Positions 3,799-51,745 of a DNA stretch of 64,000 nt are shown in pieces. The notes below the pieces were generated by a model. The model worked only from the letters and a program-made list of their open reading frames with translations. It searched no databases and was not told the DNA's origin. Positions within the stretch are counted from its first letter, which is position 1, and every line of letters starts with the position of its first letter. This stretch comes from a virus, in the IMG/VR virus record IMGVR_UViG_3300028883_000032, positions 1 to 64,000 of that record; one strand, given 5' to 3'. The translations under genes and the position numbers were made by a program.

Positions 3799-4211
3799 AA
3801 ACAGAACATTTACAGCAATTACTTGTGTCCGGACAGTTTATAGGATCTCACATGTGCCTTGCCAAAGACATAGGATCAAACGGAAATCTCTTTGGGGGTA
3901 ACATGCTAGCTTGGGCAGACGAAATGGGTGCTATTTTTGCTAAAAAGTTTACTGGAGAACCAAAGCTCGTAACTGTTCAAATGGACGCGGTTGAATTCAC
4001 TGTTCCAGTACATGAAGGCGAAATAGTTGATTTCTATGCCGCTAACCCCAAACCCGGCCATACCAGTTTAACGTTCACTCTTGTTGTTGCCAAACCGAAC
4101 AATGCCGACGGGGTAAGACAAATTGTATTTACAACGCGATTTGTTTTCGTGGCTGTCGGCGATGATGGGCACTCCAAACCAATTGAAAGGTTTGCAGAAA
4201 AGCGCCCATAG
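3795..4211 (+). CDS. YciA-like acyl-CoA thioesterase
   Basis: A 138-residue single hotdog-fold protein resembling the YciA/BFIT acyl-CoA thioesterases, which hydrolyse acyl-CoA to free acid and CoA. Visible motifs are GNLFGGNMLAWADEMGA near residue 33 (catalytic Asp in the WxDE segment), VEFTVPVHEGEIV near residue 65 and GHTSLTFTLVV near residue 90. It starts with a four-base overlap with the upstream membrane protein. Its TAG stop codon is formed by bases 8-10 of the downstream tRNA-Arg. A lipid-related role during infection is inference. Confidence 0.75.
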   Translation: MKTEHLQQLLVSGQFIGSHMCLAKDIGSNGNLFGGNMLAWADEMGAIFAKKFTGEPKLVTVQMDAVEFTVPVHEGEIVDFYAANPKPGHTSLTFTLVVAKPNNADGVRQIVFTTRFVFVAVGDDGHSKPIERFAEKRP

Positions 4212-4274
4212 TTCAGTGGTTAGAACAGCGGACTCTAAATCCGTGTGTCCTCGGTTCAAGTCCGAGTGGGCGCA
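4202..4274 (+). tRNA. tRNA-Arg(TCT)
   Basis: Acceptor GCGCCCA/TGGGCGC, anticodon loop CTCTAAA (TCT) on stem GCGGA/TCCGT, T-loop TTCAAGT. CCA is not encoded. The first ten bases overlap the end of the thioesterase gene. Confidence 0.95.
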
Positions 4275-4287
4275 CAAAGGAGACCTA

Positions 4288-5234: not shown

Positions 5235-5680
5235 TGGATGCTTCTTTGGCGACTGCAAATAACCTTGTAAAGGCCTTAAGGATAGCTCTTGATGCCCATA
5301 AAGATCAAGTTGATAGGTTAGGCCATCCGTATATTCTCCACCCAATCAAAGTTATGACCATGGTCGGGGATGATAGGGTGCTGCAAATAATAGCACTACT
5401 ACACGACGTGGTGGAAGATAGCGATTGGACTCTTGAAGAATTAGGTTCTGAAGGATTTTGTGAACGTGTGATAAATGGTGTGGATTCTATGACCCGCAGA
5501 CATGGAGAAACTTATACTGAATTCATAGAGAGGAACAAGCATAATGAGGATGGAAGGAAAGTTAAGATAGAAGACATACGCCACAATTCCAGCTTCGAAA
5601 GATTGTCCCACTTACCTGTGGATGTTGCCACGCGGCTAGCAGTCAAATACGCAAAAGCCCTTATTATTTTAGGAAGATAG
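5234..5680 (+). CDS. HD-domain hydrolase, RelA/SpoT-hydrolase-like
   Basis: A 148-residue protein of the MESH1/SpoT-like HD family, which uses Mn to remove pyrophosphate from (p)ppGpp or a related nucleotide. Visible are HPYILHPIKVM near residue 31, the HD pair in LLHDVVEDSDWT near residue 56, and VKIEDIRHNSS near residue 111, which matches the family KxxDxxHN segment. Stand-alone copies occur in phages and could lower host alarmone levels. It is the last gene of a coupled run and is followed by a terminator. The exact substrate cannot be read from sequence. Confidence 0.75.
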   Translation: MDASLATANNLVKALRIALDAHKDQVDRLGHPYILHPIKVMTMVGDDRVLQIIALLHDVVEDSDWTLEELGSEGFCERVINGVDSMTRRHGETYTEFIERNKHNEDGRKVKIEDIRHNSSFERLSHLPVDVATRLAVKYAKALIILGR

Positions 5681-5687
5681 ACGTAGT

Positions 5688-5723
5688 CCCAGATAGTAGC
5701 TTTGTTACTATCTGGGTATTTTT
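5688..5723 (+). terminator. Rho-independent terminator
   Basis: An 11-bp stem CCCAGATAGTA/TACTATCTGGG followed by TATTTTTA, eight bases after the HD gene. Confidence 0.8.
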
Positions 5724-5745
5724 ATCCCAATGTAAGCATAACTTA

Positions 5746-5756
5746 ATGGCATAAGA
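5746..5756 (+). promoter_or_regulatory. ATGGNATAAGA box (candidate phage promoter)
   Basis: ATGGCATAAGA between the terminator at 5688 and the T9SS-tagged gene at 5788. The same 11-base box recurs between transcription units at 30005, 49575, 50528, 51358 and 51812. Confidence 0.5.
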
Positions 5757-5787
5757 AAGAGTGAAGTTTAACCATGCGGAGGTAAGA

Positions 5788-7026
5788 ATGCTAAAGAAGA
5801 TTCTTGTTGTCATGTTGCTTTTGAGTACCACGGTGGTATTCGGGCAAAGTTTTGAGGAAGTATCTACCGTCAGTATGGACGGTAGAAAATCGGATGCATT
5901 CCTGGTTAATAATAGTATTTTGTGTTTCTCATGTAGAGACACGGTGTATTATTACGACACCGGGGACTTTTCCCGAATGGGAGAAGTGTACGTTGACGGT
6001 GAAGTTTCCTCGCTTGAGTATAATTGGATTTATACTTATGCGAGTACAAATCGAGGCTTTGTCATCATTGACTGTGAAGACGTCTTTGATGGCAGGGCGC
6101 CGTATAATCCACGTTTTGTGGATAGAGTAAATCTTGGTGGTATAACAAACCTCTCAGTAACAAGTCGTGATTCTCTCCACGTATATGCCTCCGGTGGTCC
6201 TAACGGGGTCTTTAGGATTAATATCCAACAAGATACTAATCCGTATGTTACGGACCATCTCAGTACGCCCGGCTACGCAAACGATCTTTGCGTAGTAGAC
6301 GGTTTCGTCTACACGGCCTGCTGGGGACCGATCCACAAGCACCGGTTGGCCACGGACTCTACATACGGGGTGTGGTCTATCGAAGGACAGAACGTCAAAC
6401 GTATTGGAGATTTGAACGACGGAGTCGGAGTATGGTGGGCGTCCGATTATCAAATCGGGGCCCTTGACATTTGGGGAAACTTAACAACTTGGAGGTATTA
6501 CCCAAACTCCAATGCTGTTAAGGATGTTTTCGCCAGTGACGGCTATACTGCAGTACTTGGCGATTCGGCCGAGTATTGGATATGGGGATCAGAAGAATTT
6601 GATGATCCCGATATAAACTGGAGCTACCCGGATGGAGAACATCCTAACCGGGTGGTTGTATGGAGGAATGAAGGTGAGATATTCTCTGCAGTATTAACAC
6701 AGGAGAATATACACTTCCTCCAGTTTGTGGAAGAAAACAAAGTTTCTGACAAGGGAGAACTCCCCCAGAAGTACGAGGTGAGTGTCTACCCGAACCCGTT
6801 CAACCCGACAACCTCCATCGGCTTCAGCCTTGCACGCCAGGGGCGTGTGACGCTCGCGGTGTACGATGTGCTGGGACGCCAGGTTGCCACACTGATCGAC
6901 CGTACGATGAACAACGGTCATCACACGGTATTCTTCGATGGAAGTAACCTCTCGGCAGGAGCTTACTTCTTAAAAATACGGACCAAGGACTCGGTGCATA
7001 CCCAAAAGCTTGTATTGTTGAAATAG
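5788..7026 (+). CDS. secreted protein with T9SS C-terminal sorting domain
   Basis: A 412-residue exported protein; the ATG at 5788 follows a strong GGAGGTAAG. It has a signal peptide (MLKKILVVMLLL, cleavage probably after VFG near residue 20), a beta-propeller-like body (about residues 25-320) and a C-terminal type A sorting domain beginning VYPNPFNPTTSIGF and ending LSAGAYFLKIRT...KLVLLK. Such domains direct proteins through the type IX system to the outer membrane of Bacteroidota and related phyla. The last 250 bases look more GC-rich than their surroundings, which suggests recent acquisition from the host. The gene is flanked by terminators. It could alter the infected cell surface, for example as a decoy or exclusion factor. 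Confidence 0.75.
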   Translation: MLKKILVVMLLLSTTVVFGQSFEEVSTVSMDGRKSDAFLVNNSILCFSCRDTVYYYDTGDFSRMGEVYVDGEVSSLEYNWIYTYASTNRGFVIIDCEDVFDGRAPYNPRFVDRVNLGGITNLSVTSRDSLHVYASGGPNGVFRINIQQDTNPYVTDHLSTPGYANDLCVVDGFVYTACWGPIHKHRLATDSTYGVWSIEGQNVKRIGDLNDGVGVWWASDYQIGALDIWGNLTTWRYYPNSNAVKDVFASDGYTAVLGDSAEYWIWGSEEFDDPDINWSYPDGEHPNRVVVWRNEGEIFSAVLTQENIHFLQFVEENKVSDKGELPQKYEVSVYPNPFNPTTSIGFSLARQGRVTLAVYDVLGRQVATLIDRTMNNGHHTVFFDGSNLSAGAYFLKIRTKDSVHTQKLVLLK

Positions 7027-8420: not shown

Positions 8421-8788
8421 CAATAAACCAATAAAAATTGGTAAAAGATTTGTAGAGCAAGTAACACAAAGTATTTGTACACAGAAGACGATCAACAAAT
8501 AGTGTGTCGCAATAGTTAGCGAATCCTTAACGGCTGGATATAATGGACCAGCTGGGAGCGGCGAGTGGGTGACGAATCGGAAGTCCCACCAAATACTTAT
8601 TATGGCATAAGAAGATGAGATAGCTGACCGAAACCTCTTGGGATTCATGTGTACACTCCTACAACACGTGAAAGTAGGAAGCTGTCTTTTCAGAGATTTA
8701 TGCGAGGTCCATACTGATGTAGCCACCGTGTCAGTGTATCTTTGTGTAGATCGAGGAGTGTTATAGCTAACGGTGGCTTTGTTTTTTT
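8421..8788 (+). ncRNA. structured non-coding RNA, family unknown
   Basis: About 370 bases with no credible ORF, between two leucine tRNAs. Local hairpins are visible (GGCTGG...CCAGCT, GTGGG...CCCAC, CTCCTAC...GTAGGAAG) and the stretch ends in a strong terminator. A copy of the ATGGNATAAGA box at 8602 lies inside, so the stretch may be one RNA or a shorter RNA of about 170 bases starting near 8620. I see no RNase P, tmRNA or SRP hallmark. Confidence 0.5.
8721..8788 (+). terminator. Rho-independent terminator
   Basis: AGCCACCGT (8721-8729) pairs with ACGGTGGCT (8770-8778), followed by TTGTTTTTTT. The T-tract ends exactly at the first base of the intron-containing tRNA-Leu. Confidence 0.65.
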
Positions 8789-8821
8789 GGCGGAGTGGCG
8801 GAATTGGCAGACGCGCTAGAC

Positions 8822-9358
8822 TTAACTCAAAGAATTTAGAATGTCATAAGCATTCTTTACTACATCACGAACTAGTGTTTTACCACCAGAGTAAACCCTT
8901 ACGATTGCGTTTTTTCTATTTACGTCCTTTTGAAATTTAGCGTTAGGGTAAATATCTAAGAAACCCTTAGCATCGCTTTTAGATTTTGCCAACACAACCA
9001 ATCTTATACTTTTGGCGCTATATACTTCAGTCAGCATTGAAGTTATTAAGTCTATTAAGTTTGGATCTTGGTTGCAAAATTGAAATATATTAGCTTTTTC
9101 TGTACGATACCCTTCACACAGATAAGCAATATGGCCTGCTATGCTAAGGTTAGTCTTTAATAAAGATTGATCCGGGTTTTGATGACTTACTCTGGGAAGA
9201 TAATTATATTCAGATGCACTACGCATAGAAATATTGTGAAATTTTAAATACTTACGAACTGTTTTGTGATCACATTTTAAAAGCATTCCAATTTCATAAG
9301 GATTTAATTTATCTTCTAAGTAGAGTTTTTCTAGTTCATGTTTAGTAAAATTCTTCAT
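8822..9358 (-). CDS. LAGLIDADG-like homing endonuclease, intron-encoded
   Basis: The only convincing minus-strand gene in the window, lying inside the tRNA-Leu intron and opposite to the tRNA. I take the start at 9358 (178 residues; the frame extends further upstream). Residues 5-40 form a helix-turn-helix (YEIGMLLKCDHKTVRKYL). Residues about 72-100 (SIAGHIAYLCEGYRTEKAN) resemble a single LAGLIDADG helix with Glu as the acidic residue, followed by FCNQDPNLIDLI, as in small single-motif LAGLIDADG-type proteins. It probably cuts intron-less tRNA-Leu alleles to spread the intron. Its stop codon complement overlaps the 5' splice site. Confidence 0.65.
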   Translation of the reverse strand: MKNFTKHELEKLYLEDKLNPYEIGMLLKCDHKTVRKYLKFHNISMRSASEYNYLPRVSHQNPDQSLLKTNLSIAGHIAYLCEGYRTEKANIFQFCNQDPNLIDLITSMLTEVYSAKSIRLVVLAKSKSDAKGFLDIYPNAKFQKDVNRKNAIVRVYSGGKTLVRDVVKNAYDILNSLS

Positions 9359-9626
9359 CCTGAGCCTTTGGTTAGAAATAACTAATTGAATTCGGCTATA
9401 TGCGGGAAACTCATAAAGCCTACAGTACCATACGTATACCAATAGTATACTAAATTGGAAATACGTTGTCAAGTAAAAATCTGTAGGATGTACAATTGAC
9501 AATCCGCAGGGAAGCCTGTAATGGCCCCTCAGAGACTAAACGCCGAACCCTTAACAGGTAATGCTGAAGGAGATGATATAGTCCAGACCACAACAGAATA
9601 TGGCTTGTGAAAGCAAGTGTGGTAAG
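8824..9626 (+). mobile_element. group I intron in tRNA-Leu(UAG)
   Basis: An 803-base intron. Its 3' part carries group I core elements: AGACTAAACG near 9535 and GATATAGTCC near 9577, which can pair to form P7, and a terminal G at 9626. The endonuclease gene occupies the first two thirds on the opposite strand. Confidence 0.8.
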
Positions 9627-9723
9627 AGGATCTAGTGTCTTCGGACGTGTGGGTTCGAGTCCCACCTCTGCTACCATTAAGATAAACTCATATGAGACAT
9701 ATGCAAAGCGACATAAAAACAAT

Positions 9724-9784: not shown

Positions 9785-10777
9785 ATGAATATCATAGTGA
9801 ATTCTCTGATAAACGACAGAAGTTCATTTGGAAGAGTCGGCTATAATTTAGTTTTAGCTATGACTAAACTTGGTCATAAAGTTAAAACTGTTGCATGGCC
9901 GGAAAGTAATTTTGATATTGTAGAAACTCTACCAAAACCTGACTTTGCTAGCCCTGATTTATGGGTAAGGCTGTCGCATCCAGATGGCCCAGTAAGCCAT
10001 CCAGACTGTGAACACGCTGGGTTACTGACTGTATTTGAATCCACAGGACTATATAAGCACACAAAAATAGGTAACCTCAAACCCCTTGATTTCATCGCTA
10101 CTCCTAGCGAATGGTGTTCCAATATCTTAAGGAATATCAAGAAAGATATCCCAATCTTTACTTGGAATCACGGGTACAATCCAATCCTTCCTTTTAAAAC
10201 AAACATTAATGATCAAGTAACTACCCTACTAACTGTTGGGTGTATGGATGATCGTAAGCACATCTACAATTTTCTTAAATTATTTGAAGACAATTTTAGG
10301 AATTCAAATGAAATTAAGTTAATAGTAAAATCTCAAAAAGGATTTAATCCTAGGTATTGTCTTGATTGTAAAAACGTAAAATTTGTAGATAAAGAGCTTA
10401 ATAAATTAGAACTAGAAAAGCTTTATTTAAGTGCCAGCGCCTATGTTATGCCATCAAGGGGTGAAGCCTTTGGTTTAACCGCTTTGGAAGCCGCCATGAT
10501 GGGTATACCTATAATGGTCACTAATTTTAGTGGGCCAGTAGATTATTTAGACGATTGCGCATCCATTAAATTAGACTATGACCTAGTAGATACTCCAAAT
10601 AGCGGACCTTGGGCAGGAAAATGGGCAAAACCAACAGACGATGCCATCCTTACGGGAATTGAAGAGTTAGTGACTAACAATAAATTGGGTATAAAAGCAG
10701 TAGATGTGGCACAAAATGTTAGAGACAAGTGGTCATGGGAAATAACTACTGAAAGGTTTTTAAATAGTATACAATGA
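9785..10777 (+). CDS. GT4-like (GT-B) glycosyltransferase
   Basis: A 330-residue retaining-type GT-B glycosyltransferase. The N-terminal domain has SSFGRVGYNLVLAMTKLGHK; the C-terminal domain has LLTVGCMDDRKHI and the donor-binding segment GEAFGLTALEAAMMGIPIM (near residue 225), where Glu-x7-Glu contacts the nucleotide sugar in this family. It is the first gene of the glycan cluster, and its stop overlaps the next start (ATGA). Acceptor and donor sugar are unknown. Confidence 0.8.
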   Translation: MNIIVNSLINDRSSFGRVGYNLVLAMTKLGHKVKTVAWPESNFDIVETLPKPDFASPDLWVRLSHPDGPVSHPDCEHAGLLTVFESTGLYKHTKIGNLKPLDFIATPSEWCSNILRNIKKDIPIFTWNHGYNPILPFKTNINDQVTTLLTVGCMDDRKHIYNFLKLFEDNFRNSNEIKLIVKSQKGFNPRYCLDCKNVKFVDKELNKLELEKLYLSASAYVMPSRGEAFGLTALEAAMMGIPIMVTNFSGPVDYLDDCASIKLDYDLVDTPNSGPWAGKWAKPTDDAILTGIEELVTNNKLGIKAVDVAQNVRDKWSWEITTERFLNSIQ

Positions 10778-12417
10778 AAATTCCTTTATTTGTATCAACA
10801 TTCAATAGAATAGAGACTGTAAAACAATCATTGACAAGTCTTGCAAACTCAAACTTACCAGACTATGTCCAAGTAATCATTAGTGACGATGGATCAAGCG
10901 ATCCAGTTGTTCCACAAATTAAAAGGTTATATGGAAAGTTAGGTTGGGAAATACATGCGAACCATCATAGGGAGTTCCCCGAAGGAAAGTTGGCCCCTAT
11001 ACGAGAACATTTAGACAGGTTTCCAGATGCCCCATACTTTCTAGTTTCTGATTCTGATATGTTATACACCAAAAACTGGGTACAGGCTTTAGAAAAGATA
11101 TATCGTGACACTAAAAAGGATGGTGTAAATCCGGCCGTTATAACTGGTTTTGATACGGAGTGGAATCAACATAGAATAGTAGAAAGACATGGATATTGGG
11201 GATTTAAGGGAACTGTTGGTGGTGCAAACCTATTAGCAGATAGAGAATTTTACAATAAGTGGCAATGGAATGGAATGCATTGGGATTGGGGAATATGTTC
11301 AAAAGCAGGAGAATTTGATTACAAGCTCGTTAGCAGTTGTCCATCTTTAACTGAACATATTGGGAAACATGGTAAATTTTCAAAACCGGGTAAATATGAC
11401 GTAGCGGTTCATTTTGAAGGTGAAGATTTCGATGCCATGGAAATTTTTAATCCGGAGTATAAATACTTGAGTGAAACAGCACTAGTAACAGCAGGACAAG
11501 GGGTAGGAAACATAGTAATGGCTACTCCATTAATAGAAGCTCTGCACGATTTAGGATATATAGTAGATTTTATGGTTGGATGTAACTGGCCTAAAAGCAA
11601 AGAGTTGTTTTTTGAAAACCCACATTGTAGAAATGTTGCTTGGAGTAATGAGCATATAGATGGTTTCTATAATATAGTTGTTGAAACTGCTTGGAGTTTT
11701 TCTTCTTGGGAAGGAAAATATGCTACCAATAGGTTGGCACGACACGATCGCCACGTAAAAGTGGACAAATCAGTAGTTGACCACCAATACCGTAATCATG
11801 AAATCCACCATAACCTAACTCCAGCAATTCAGCTTGGTATGGATGAATCCAAGATGAACAGCTACAAGCCTTTTGTTAACACCCTAATGCCCCACAACTA
11901 TAATACTGATTCAAAGGTTATAGGAATTCATGCAGGGTGTAATCCAAGACCCGAATGGGAAGGTAAAAAATATCCGTACTATCAAGAGCTTGTTTACTTA
12001 TTAAAAAGAGACGGATATAAAATTGCACTATTTGGCACTGATACGGACCAACATTTAAAGGATGTTGATTATGACTTTATAGGAGCAACTAATGTCCAAG
12101 GAGCAGCAGAACGCATCGCTGGCTGTGATATATTTATTTCTAACGATTCTGGATTAATGCATTGTGCAGGCGCCAGCCAAATACCACAAATAGCTATATT
12201 TGGGGGCGAAGGTTACAAGAAAATGGTTAAAAACGACCCTCGACTATATAATGATAAGGCTATTGTAATTGGCGCGGAAGACTTAAGCACTATTTCTCCG
12301 GAACAGGTGATGGATACTCTCAAGTATGGTAAGTTCTCTAAAAATAAGTATCAAGGTAGTGTAGATATTCCAATTAAACCAAAAGTGAAGCGTAAAACAA
12401 CCACTAAAAAGAAATGA
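10774..12417 (+). CDS. GT2-GT9 fusion glycosyltransferase
   Basis: A 547-residue two-domain protein. Residues 1-220 are GT-A/GT2-like (PLFVSTFNRIETVKQSL, VIISDDGSSDP, and a DxD-like SDSDML near residue 90). Residues about 235-510 are GT9/heptosyltransferase-like (ALVTAGQGVGNIVMATPLIE, IGIHAGCNPRPEW, CDIFISNDSGLMHCAGA). The C-terminus is a Lys-rich tail. One chain could transfer two sugars. It overlaps its neighbours by four bases on both sides, so it is part of the operon. Fusions of this kind are uncommon. Confidence 0.8.
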   Translation: MKIPLFVSTFNRIETVKQSLTSLANSNLPDYVQVIISDDGSSDPVVPQIKRLYGKLGWEIHANHHREFPEGKLAPIREHLDRFPDAPYFLVSDSDMLYTKNWVQALEKIYRDTKKDGVNPAVITGFDTEWNQHRIVERHGYWGFKGTVGGANLLADREFYNKWQWNGMHWDWGICSKAGEFDYKLVSSCPSLTEHIGKHGKFSKPGKYDVAVHFEGEDFDAMEIFNPEYKYLSETALVTAGQGVGNIVMATPLIEALHDLGYIVDFMVGCNWPKSKELFFENPHCRNVAWSNEHIDGFYNIVVETAWSFSSWEGKYATNRLARHDRHVKVDKSVVDHQYRNHEIHHNLTPAIQLGMDESKMNSYKPFVNTLMPHNYNTDSKVIGIHAGCNPRPEWEGKKYPYYQELVYLLKRDGYKIALFGTDTDQHLKDVDYDFIGATNVQGAAERIAGCDIFISNDSGLMHCAGASQIPQIAIFGGEGYKKMVKNDPRLYNDKAIVIGAEDLSTISPEQVMDTLKYGKFSKNKYQGSVDIPIKPKVKRKTTTKKK

Positions 12418-47734: not shown

Positions 47735-48605
47735 AAAAAGAGCTGCCCAGTACTTTATACCTCACGATTTTAAAGAAGAGGTAGAAGTGCTTAACCAGTC
47801 TTCTTACTGTATATGGATGACCCCGCTAGCCTTTCAAAAAATGTGGCATTTTGTCGATATTTGTAGTCAAGAAGTTGGCTGGCTTGGATCGGTTGAACGA
47901 GAGGGAAGAAATTTCATTATAACCGATGTTTTCATGTTTGAGCAAGAAGTTACAGGGACTACAACATCTCTCGATGAAGCTGGCCAGACTAAACTTATGG
48001 AAAATTTTCTGGCACAAGAGAATGGTACAGAGCTTTATAACTCTATAAGGTTCTGGGGACATAGTCATGTTAACATGGGAACAACTCCAAGTGGTCAAGA
48101 TGAAACCACAATGAAGGAATTCGAAGAAAATGGCTGTGCGTGGTTTATAAGAGGCATATTCAACAAAAGAGGACGAGCACAGTTTGATATATTTTTATAC
48201 GACGAAGGTGTACGAGTAAACGATGTTCGTTGGGCAATTCTTGTTGAAATGCCGGAATTTGATATCCGCAAAGAGTTGGAAACTGAAATACAAAAGAAGG
48301 TTACCACAAAAAAGTATGTATATCCTTCGTACGCAGGTGGATGGGGAGGAGGAAATGGCTATGACCCTACCAAGAGGACTGGGAATGGTACTGTTAACCA
48401 CTCAGTCCACCCTACTGTAGGTCAAGGGAACCGCTCATCGTCACAGCAGGGAAATGTCTGGGACGAATTTTATACGGCAAATCCAAGCGGAACTCTTGAC
48501 CTAGATGAAGACGACGAAGGAACAACCTTTTTCAACAATAATGGAGTTGTTGAAGAACTAAAACCAGAAACTAAAAAAGAGACAAAAAAGGACAAAACTA
48601 AATGA
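47712..48605 (+). CDS. JAMM/MPN metalloprotease (deubiquitinase-like)
   Basis: A 297-residue protein. The MPN domain (about residues 30-180) has Glu54 in SQEVGWLG and the complete JAMM signature WGHSHVNMGTTPSGQD: His117, His119, Ser127, Asp130. Residues 205-297 are low-complexity, Gly/Asn- then acid- and Lys-rich, perhaps a flexible tail. In bacterial ubiquitin-like operons this enzyme trims the modifier precursor or removes it from targets. The stop overlaps the E1-like start. Confidence 0.85.
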   Translation: MAKKKPNKKRAAQYFIPHDFKEEVEVLNQSSYCIWMTPLAFQKMWHFVDICSQEVGWLGSVEREGRNFIITDVFMFEQEVTGTTTSLDEAGQTKLMENFLAQENGTELYNSIRFWGHSHVNMGTTPSGQDETTMKEFEENGCAWFIRGIFNKRGRAQFDIFLYDEGVRVNDVRWAILVEMPEFDIRKELETEIQKKVTTKKYVYPSYAGGWGGGNGYDPTKRTGNGTVNHSVHPTVGQGNRSSSQQGNVWDEFYTANPSGTLDLDEDDEGTTFFNNNGVVEELKPETKKETKKDKTK

Positions 48606-49294
48606 TCGATCCTTTACGTCACTTGGCTATTTTTGATCCTGATGCCTTTGGTCCCCGACGAGTTGATGTAATAGGTGTGGGTGCAACTGGATCAAAAGTT
48701 GTGTTGGAACTTGCAAAACTCGGCATAGTTAACATTCACGTATGGGATTATGACAAAGTCGAAGAACACAATGTTCCCAACCAAGTTTTTGGAAATGATC
48801 ATGTTGGGATGTTCAAAGTTGACGCCATATCAAAAATTGTCAAGGCACAAACTGGTATTGACTTAGTAACTCATAACGAAGAAGTAGACGGTACTCAAAC
48901 TTTTGGTGATATAGTATTCTTGCTAACCGACACCATGAAAAGCCGTAAATCAATCTTTGAGAGGGGCATTAAATATAAATTTAATGTCAAATTAATGATT
49001 GAAACGCGGATGGGAAAAGACAGCGGGCAGATATACTCCATCATTCCGACAAAACCGGATCACATCAAAAATTGGGAAAATTCCCTGTTTAGCGATGATG
49101 ACAAAGATACTGAAGTATCTCTATGTGGAAGTACAATAACTGTTGGGTCAACTGCCGGAATAATTTCGGGCCTAGCGGTTTGGAAAGTCATTGAATGGCT
49201 TCAACACGAAACCGGCAAACTGGAAAATGGAATTGCTAACGAAACAATGATTGATATTTCCCCCAAGTTAGCAGTTTATCAAAACAAATATTAA
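48602..49294 (+). CDS. E1/ThiF-like activating enzyme
   Basis: A 230-residue ThiF/E1-fold protein: VDVIGVGATGSKVV (Gly25-Gly30 nucleotide loop), WDYDKVEEHNVPNQ (Asp49, Asn57, Gln61), Lys72, and Cys175 in EVSLCGST, which could form the thioester. It lacks a separate second catalytic domain, as is usual in prokaryotic E1-like enzymes. It would adenylate the modifier encoded next. ATGA overlap with the JAMM gene. Confidence 0.85.
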   Translation: MIDPLRHLAIFDPDAFGPRRVDVIGVGATGSKVVLELAKLGIVNIHVWDYDKVEEHNVPNQVFGNDHVGMFKVDAISKIVKAQTGIDLVTHNEEVDGTQTFGDIVFLLTDTMKSRKSIFERGIKYKFNVKLMIETRMGKDSGQIYSIIPTKPDHIKNWENSLFSDDDKDTEVSLCGSTITVGSTAGIISGLAVWKVIEWLQHETGKLENGIANETMIDISPKLAVYQNKY

Positions 49295-49314
49295 CTCAGG
49301 AGTAGAATTTCAAG

Positions 49315-49524
49315 ATGGAACCTATTCAAGTACGTGTAGGAACAATTCCTGGTGGAGTCTCCGAATTTGCAATCATAGATGCAACAGTTCGTGGAGCACT
49401 TACAGCAGCAGGCCTTGAGGCGGACGGTTACAAAATCAATGTAAACGGCGTGGCAGCTAACTTAGACACACCGTTACGAGATGGTGATAATGTTCTTCGT
49501 GTTCGCAAGGTTGTTGGTAACTAA
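49315..49524 (+). CDS. beta-grasp ubiquitin-like/ThiS-MoaD-like modifier
   Basis: A 69-residue protein with the beta-grasp order: hairpin IQVRVGTIPGGVSEFAI, helix TVRGALTAAGLE, then YKINVNGVAANLDTPLRDGD and VLRVRKVVGN. The NG...DTPLRDGDNV part is the classic ThiS/MoaD/Ubl ending. The C-terminus is VVGN, so a Gly is followed by one Asn instead of Gly-Gly; the JAMM enzyme might remove the last residue. Last gene of the operon; terminator ten bases later. Strong RBS (CTCAGGAG). Confidence 0.8.
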   Translation: MEPIQVRVGTIPGGVSEFAIIDATVRGALTAAGLEADGYKINVNGVAANLDTPLRDGDNVLRVRKVVGN

Positions 49525-50500: not shown

Positions 50501-50527
50501 AAACATTTATGTAAATTTAGAATTTTT

Positions 50528-50538
50528 ATGGTATAAGA
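50528..50538 (+). promoter_or_regulatory. ATGGNATAAGA box before giant RNA
   Basis: ATGGTATAAGA between the terminator at 50475 and the ~800-base non-coding RNA. Confidence 0.55.
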
Positions 50539-50544
50539 TTTTAT

Positions 50545-51349
50545 CGTCGCGCTTTAGGCTTGCTTAAAGTACGACATCGGCCGCATGGGTCGTTAGACAT
50601 AAACCTTGAAAGAGGTGGATAGGGGCGTTGGCAACGTCCGGTCGTAGACAGTCAAAATGCAATCCGTTCCTCCTTCCTTAAAATTCCCGAGGGCAACGCT
50701 GTAGGCGAACCAACTGGAAGGACTCGAAACGAGACAACCAAAACTGGTGTGGACAAGTAACACGTGGTGGTGACTTGGAAACGTACCAACCAATTAATGG
50801 TGAATCGGACGGAAAGGTGGTGTGGTTAGATCGGCTCCTGTTAGAGTCGGTGTGGCTATCTACCATTCAAGGAATTTCTAGACCAGAAATCTAGAAAAAC
50901 TGCGAATCGGGGGACCAACAGGCCTCTGTGATGGAGTAGAGTATTTCGTTGCTCAAAAGGTAACGAAGCTCAAATCCCAGCGCTTCATCAGCCGAGAATT
51001 TTTAACAGATTCGCTCGGGTACGAGCACTTACTATCAATAAGTGAGATCATTTAAAGCACAAGACTGGGACGTGCTGAAACCTAAAGATGCCTCCGCCTT
51101 TAGTGGCCCTTAATTACTCGCAAGGTAATTAAGTTGTGTCGGAAACTAACTTTGCCCCGGCCAGGGTAAAGGGAGTGGTAAGATGCAGAAAGGTTCAGCT
51201 GGAAGACATGTGAAACCAATCTCGGGTTCACGGCATTTCCTACATACGTAAAGACATTTGCGTGGACACACCCTAAACCCAAATATTATGGGAATGTGGG
51301 GGTAAAAGTGTAGGATCAAATAGTCACGTCTAAACTATTTGATTTTTTT
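50545..51349 (+). ncRNA. giant structured RNA (GOLLD-size class)
   Basis: About 805 bases without a credible ORF, with a promoter-like box before it and a perfect terminator at its end. Many local helices are visible, for example TTTCTAGA...TCTAGAAA near 50875-50896, TTCGTTGCTC...GGTAACGAAG near 50945-50970, TTAATTACTCGC...GTAATTAA near 51110-51132 and CACTTACT...AGTGAG near 51025-51045. Size, phage context and nearby tRNAs match the GOLLD RNAs (about 800 nt); the shorter ROOL RNAs are another option. I cannot confirm the family by eye. Such RNAs form large RNA-only multimers and are expressed in phages. Confidence 0.65.
51314..51349 (+). terminator. Rho-independent terminator of giant RNA
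   Basis: ATCAAATAGT...ACTATTTGAT followed by seven T. Confidence 0.9.
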
Positions 51350-51357
51350 AGCCTAAA

Positions 51358-51368
51358 ATGGAATAAGA
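51358..51368 (+). promoter_or_regulatory. ATGGNATAAGA box (candidate phage promoter)
   Basis: ATGGAATAAGA nine bases after the terminator and 26 bases before the lipoprotein start. Confidence 0.55.
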
Positions 51369-51394
51369 GTGTATACAAACTCTTGGGAGGAAAA

Positions 51395-51745
51395 GTGAAA
51401 AAGTTGGTGCTTTTACTGCTGCTTGTGATGGTAACGGGATGTTGCCATCACCCATTAGGGCTGTGGAGATCGGAATCCACCCTGTATGAGCTTCAATGGA
51501 GCTTTGAGAACCAGCATATTTATTGGGGAAGAGCAGTAATAAGCTACGACTCCGTATGGACTATTGTTGGAGAGCCAGAAGTAGGCCTAGCCGTTATAAG
51601 AGGGGATACTCTAAATTTGTATATAGACAAGGAGTTGAAATACAGCCTTTTGGTTAAAAACGAAAAATACATACAGATATATCCGGAATATATGCTTCTG
51701 ACCGGCAGTTGGATAAACCGGGAGGACAGTCCAATGGGCAAGTAA
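51395..51745 (+). CDS. small lipoprotein
   Basis: A 116-residue protein with GTG start behind GGGAGGA. Signal peptide KKLVLLLLLVMVTGC ends in a lipobox (VTGC), so the mature protein would be lipid-anchored from Cys16. The remainder is small, beta-rich and unrecognised. Phage lipoproteins often block superinfection; that is a possible role here. It has its own promoter-like box and terminator. Confidence 0.65.
   Translation: MKKLVLLLLLVMVTGCCHHPLGLWRSESTLYELQWSFENQHIYWGRAVISYDSVWTIVGEPEVGLAVIRGDTLNLYIDKELKYSLLVKNEKYIQIYPEYMLLTGSWINREDSPMGK

Follow-up and report, generated by a model that had tools for sequence, protein, structure and literature searches.

A sequence-divergent GOLLD RNA gene in a large myovirus, probably full-length and predicted to form an RNA cage

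The first 64,000 nucleotides (hereafter the window) of a 206,856-base myovirus record contain an RNA gene of 805 nt at positions 50545-51349 on the + strand, to which all RNA feature coordinates below refer. We conclude that it very likely encodes a full-length, sequence-divergent GOLLD RNA, for which cage formation is predicted by homology. Its membership in the GOLLD family is practically certain. The RNA is in all probability transcribed and functional, and by analogy with the solved member of the family it probably forms a multimer. The original prediction of a giant structured RNA had delimited the locus accurately, and its assignment to the GOLLD class is confirmed by a match to the Rfam GOLLD model (RF02032) over its full length and by an independent match to a model of the 5' domain. 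The RNA is a new find and a divergent member of a known family, and finding it is as such expected for the family.

The covariance model RF02032, which describes only the conserved 3' domain, aligns to positions 50929-51337 from model position 1 to 416 of 416, with a score of 126.7 bits and an E value of 8.2e-35. This match delimits the 3' domain of the RNA and is the sole GOLLD match in the whole record. Its score lies 23 bits under the curated gathering cut-off of 150 bits, which is a reporting threshold and not a structural feature. Routine annotation therefore misses this GOLLD: an Rfam scan at gathering thresholds gave no report at the locus, and all that it returned were tRNAs and a single group I intron. 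Searches with the Rfam GOLLD and ROOL models had been suggested along with the original prediction; the former matched at E 8e-35, though under the cut-off, and the latter did not match. The ROOL, OLE and HEARO models all remained without a match at E up to 10, and chance matches were all that blastn found when the locus was compared with phage records.

Relatives were collected by searching IMG/VR with a single degenerate GOLLD hairpin pattern. Among the 80 other records found in this way, the covariance model detects GOLLD in 74 (E up to 0.001), of which 72 exceed the cut-off, and those without a match are mostly short contigs cut near the hairpin. With GOLLD in nearly all of these records, the pattern proves specific and the relatives genuine. 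GOLLD-like DNA was also observed in two uncultured phage records, LR756502.1 (434272-435053; 642 kb) and LR745206.1 (420443-421251; 635 kb), and Acinetobacter phage vB_AciJM_313 (PX050566) gave a shorter, partial DNA match to the GOLLD query.

Profiles of the 5' domain based on sequence alone were suggestive at most (E 0.059 and 0.01), and a covariance model, R1, was therefore built from the first 160-175 nt of the 5' domains of 16 other phage GOLLDs, with the window excluded. RNAalifold predicted 37 pairs on this alignment, 25 of them with two-sided changes, and for most relatives R1 recovers the 5' domain that was expected. In the record under study it matches positions 50575-50720 with 31.3 bits (E 1.8e-7 in the window and 5.8e-7 in the record), and this match is the only one in 206.9 kb. 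The R1 and RF02032 matches lie in the right order and at the right spacing, which identifies both halves of the RNA as GOLLD. We assign the 5' domain, which in the solved GOLLD caps the half-shell (PMC12286853), to positions 50575-50928, on the basis of R1 for 50575-50720 and of collinearity with relatives in the alignment for the remainder. It is preceded by a 5'-terminal hairpin (50546-50575) that is predicted by folding and cannot be aligned with relatives. Within the domain, a conserved hairpin with a GAAA loop (CCUU-GAAA-GAGG, 50604-50615) has a stem that covaries among relatives, and the most conserved stretch, CCGAGGGCAACGCTGTAGG at 50687-50705, stands out in the alignments, the profiles and R1. 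One two-hairpin arm is shortened in the window, and its R1 model stem does not form.

The covariation analysis called for by the original prediction gave a strong result. Over the 27 pairs of P13, P15 and a long-range pseudoknot in 31 sequences including the window, 99.3% of the 837 cells are standard-paired, and two-sided changes occur in 20 of the 27 pairs. None of 500 shuffles reached the observed pairing, and structures slid along the alignment were 34-50% paired. In P17-P21, where MAFFT by itself places the window wrongly, we relied on the Rfam alignment. All 18 pairs of P13 and P15 form in the window; P13 (50929-50937/50982-50990) encloses a hairpin at 50945-50967 that carries the invariant TCAAAAG, and both covary. 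The pseudoknot, in which J13/15 pairs with a strand past the variable linker, forms 7 of its 8 pairs. Its 5' strand is UCCCAGC (50975-50981) and its 3' strand, placed by alignment and covariation, is G(A)CUGGGA (51063-51070), where relatives most commonly have ACGGACC with G(U)GUCCGU. The window thus carries a multi-base compensatory variant of the pseudoknot, in which pairing is kept with different bases. Further downstream, the Rfam alignment places a hairpin with the conserved loop UCGCAAG at 51109-51133.

The many local helices noted originally are a less decisive property. The minimum free energy of the 805-nt locus is well below that of dinucleotide shuffles (z = -5.65), but it is ordinary for this genome when set against 805-nt segments of equal GC taken from the same window (z = -0.86). 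Against such a local background the helices are weak evidence alone, and it is homology and covariation that carry the case; folding by itself would not have established a structured RNA.

The locus has the organization of an independent gene. As had been proposed, it holds no sizeable ORF: inside 50545-51349 the ORF list contains none longer than 39 aa on the + strand, and the longest on the - strand has 66 aa. ORFs on the + strand cover 89% of the window, in which 50568-51382 is the third-longest + strand ORF-free gap and one of three that exceed 800 bases. One of the two longer gaps holds tRNAs, the other a tRNA with a group I intron.

Directly upstream lies a putative promoter, TTTTATGGTATAAGA (50524-50538), with a box that looks like an extended -10 element. 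This box, TATGGNATAAGA (TATGGTATAAGA) at 50527-50538, is a copy of a phage-wide motif which, with at most one mismatch, has 41 matches in the whole record of 206.9 kb, compared with 5-8 in shuffled sequence, and 7 matches in the window, compared with 1.7 expected. Copies of the motif often stand directly behind a T-run (in the window and in L147-L154), and 22 bases of the GOLLD promoter region recur exactly at record position 160518. These counts substantiate the promoter-like box of the original prediction, though a sigma-70 scan of the locus found no promoter. From the spacing to the -10 box, transcription is predicted to start at about 50543-50546. At the other end, the perfect terminator that had been described is also present: the last hairpin of the RNA (P27) and its T-run form an intrinsic terminator at 51315-51349, identified from the sequence and the Rfam alignment, with a perfect, AT-rich 10-bp stem (AUCAAAUAGU/ACUAUUUGAU) followed by the T-run. 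A terminator pattern scan missed it because the stem is AT-rich while the scan demands three G-C pairs. Promoter and terminator together set the ends of the complete gene of about 805 nt (50545-51349). The promoter motif recurs at 51357, just past the terminator, and a 120-aa ORF (51383-51745) begins 33 nt past the RNA end. With its own promoter motif and terminator, and the next motif copy at 51357, the RNA gene is therefore predicted to be transcribed separately, between a start and a stop of its own.

The genes for the terminase large subunit, tail sheath and baseplate wedge, all on the - strand, identify the phage as a myovirus. The + strand carries the genes for DNA polymerase, ThyX, DNA ligase and ribonucleotide reductase, the GOLLD gene, and all 21 tRNAs that ARAGORN finds in the window. 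This setting and the length of 805 nt agree with the size and phage/tRNA neighbourhood that had been put forward for the RNA, which is not directly within a tRNA cluster: the nearest tRNAs lie 5.8 kb upstream and 3.0 kb downstream. Across the whole record, 38 of the 41 promoter motif matches are on the + strand, a bias which suggests that GOLLD would be made together with replication and tRNA genes and not with virion genes. Against this timing, a DNA helicase gene is on the - strand, and some + strand copies of the motif fall at 102-111 kb, where the long ORFs run on the - strand.

In the collections searched, the phage is without a close sequenced relative. A search of 50,697 phage records with its terminase gave a best match of 28.5% identity, and a 24-kb stretch compared with phage records matched only tRNAs and short pieces. 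Relatives in IMG/VR were sought through the terminase and through the 263-aa protein encoded upstream of the RNA, and none was found, so that synteny could not be used. This 263-aa protein, of no known family, follows an E1/ThiF-like protein (PF00899, E 5e-22; window 48602-49521) and a 69-aa ThiS/ubiquitin-like protein (E 0.003) just upstream of the RNA, and three large proteins of no known family precede the E1/ThiF-like gene.

In the same phage, a CCA-adding tRNA nucleotidyltransferase gene (+ strand) and a nicotinamide phosphoribosyltransferase-like gene are found at L150:11754-15307 (record 135754-139307). A tRNA with a CUA anticodon, listed as Pyl (window 4202-4275), could be an amber suppressor; recoding of the stop codon found no support, as 27 long ORFs stop at TAG and reading through TAG opens no further long frame. 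A tRNA-Leu-like gene, probably with a UAA anticodon, was missed by ARAGORN; it lies in two parts (window 8790-8827 and 9620-9676), interrupted by a group I intron (RF00028, 9345-9604, 71 bits; splice sites approximate) that also holds, on the opposite strand, a 226-aa ORF (8822-9502). Between a tRNA-Leu and this split gene, about 365 nt (window 8425-8789) are ORF-free, end in AGCCACCGU...ACGGUGGCU and a T-run, and contain a promoter motif match at 8601. No Rfam model matched this stretch at E up to 1, and it may be another non-coding RNA.

The solved GOLLD env-38 is a 14-mer that forms a protein-free, hollow RNA cage of two half-shells, with its linker disordered inside the cage (PMC12286853). 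In the RNA described here the corresponding variable linker, placed by alignment, spans 63 nt (50991-51053) and is closed by the pseudoknot; an ARAGORN scan found no tRNA in it. The GOLLD linkers of three relatives do contain a tRNA (Pro at L046:6806-6880, Gln at L050:5707-5777 and Arg at L079:5221-5293). Two loops of env-38 form symmetric kissing contacts between the half-shells: L21a kisses itself in bridge B8, and P21b makes the contact of bridge B9 (PMC12286853). According to the Rfam alignment, the P21a hairpin (51155-51166) has the palindromic loop CGGCCA (51158-51163), shared with the relative L022, with a 4-nt self-complementary GGCC core. P21b, which follows P21a in most relatives, is deleted, with 19 model positions gone; our assignment of P21a and P21b relies on position and sequence. 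Five members far over the cut-off (L039, L040, L055, L057 and L066) also lack the P21 hairpins, which indicates that P21b does not define the family.

We propose that the phage would transcribe the GOLLD RNA alone, from a promoter class whose distribution places it on the + strand with the replication, nucleotide and tRNA genes, and that the transcript would be ended by the RNA's own last hairpin. Homology and covariation predict that the RNA then folds into a 5' and a 3' domain, the pseudoknot of the latter closing the 63-nt linker. As in env-38, numerous copies would then join, with no protein involved, into two half-shells that together form a hollow cage around the linkers. In other GOLLDs, expression is reported to rise during phage lysis (PMC12286853). 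The purpose of such a cage might, quite tentatively, be to hold or shield translation-related cargo during infection, such as tRNAs or ribosomal parts. This guess draws on the tRNA neighbourhoods, the tRNA-bearing linkers and the L022 tmRNA among relatives, and the ribosome pull-down cited for GOLLD (PMC12286853).

The missing P21b also bears on whether the cage is complete. It is rather unlikely that the cage is joined in another way than in env-38, its half-shells held by a strengthened L21a (GGCC) kissing loop or its shell open or differently sized, without P21b. We consider it improbable as well that the RNA is a relic or reduced GOLLD without a full cage, for example a half-shell or some other stoichiometry, because the contact between half-shells at P21b is lost. 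The deletion of P21b and the shortened 5' arm speak for this reading, and the RNA is the lowest-scoring GOLLD among the records searched that is not truncated by a contig end. However, all other tested helices are kept through compensatory change, promoter and terminator are intact, the palindromic L21a loop retains its GGCC core, and the five members that are well over the cut-off without P21 hairpins show that P21b is not essential to the family.

Readings outside the GOLLD family fare worse. If the locus were an untranslated leader, a decayed coding remnant or a cis-regulatory region of the next gene, its end only 33 nt upstream of the 120-aa ORF would be accounted for; yet the terminator closes the RNA, the motif copy at 51357 would give the downstream gene its own start, and the RNA structure is conserved across unrelated phages, which makes this reading very improbable. 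The score under the GOLLD cut-off could also point to chance similarity in another large RNA class, be it ROOL, OLE, HEARO or a new one. The probability of this is negligible: it is refuted by the E value of 8e-35 over the full GOLLD model with no ROOL, OLE or HEARO match, by R1, which matches independently at the collinear place, and by covariation. A full-length, divergent GOLLD RNA thus remains the favoured explanation.

Recognisable GOLLD RNAs can therefore fall under the Rfam cut-off in phages without a close sequenced relative, and such divergent members supply multi-base compensatory changes with which to test which cage contacts persist. By retaining one half-shell contact while losing another, such a variant offers a natural experiment on the purpose of natural RNA cages, and the combination of a lost P21b with a palindromic L21a is the single trait that could make it useful for experiments.

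Among known systems, ROOL is, like GOLLD, a large phage or prophage RNA that forms an RNA-only cage, an octamer (PMC12286853), and it has no sequence or structure match to the RNA described here. Closer is L022 (IMGVR_UViG_3300037245_001077, 176.5 kb), a large tRNA-rich phage with the same CGGCCA loop and a reduced score (161.5 bits), whose 5' domain is unmatched by R1 and whose linker is longer. The 547-aa protein of the window (10774-12417) has no homologue in the L022 record, in which a tmRNA gene (5465-5805, tag DEFEQLPLAA) lies about 0.8 kb upstream of the GOLLD 3' domain (6623 onward), both among 20 tRNA genes. Unlike env-38 and RF02032, the present RNA scores under the cut-off, has no P21b and a reduced 5' arm, carries CGGCCA in L21a where GOLLD has CGCAA or GUCGAA, differs in its pseudoknot sequence, and uses its last hairpin directly as the terminator. 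With them it shares the full 3' domain, P13 and P15 with the TCAAAAG loop, the pseudoknot-closed linker, a palindromic L21a loop, a 5' domain with the GAAA hairpin and the GAGGGCAACGCTGTAGG stretch, a length of about 800 nt and a phage rich in tRNAs.
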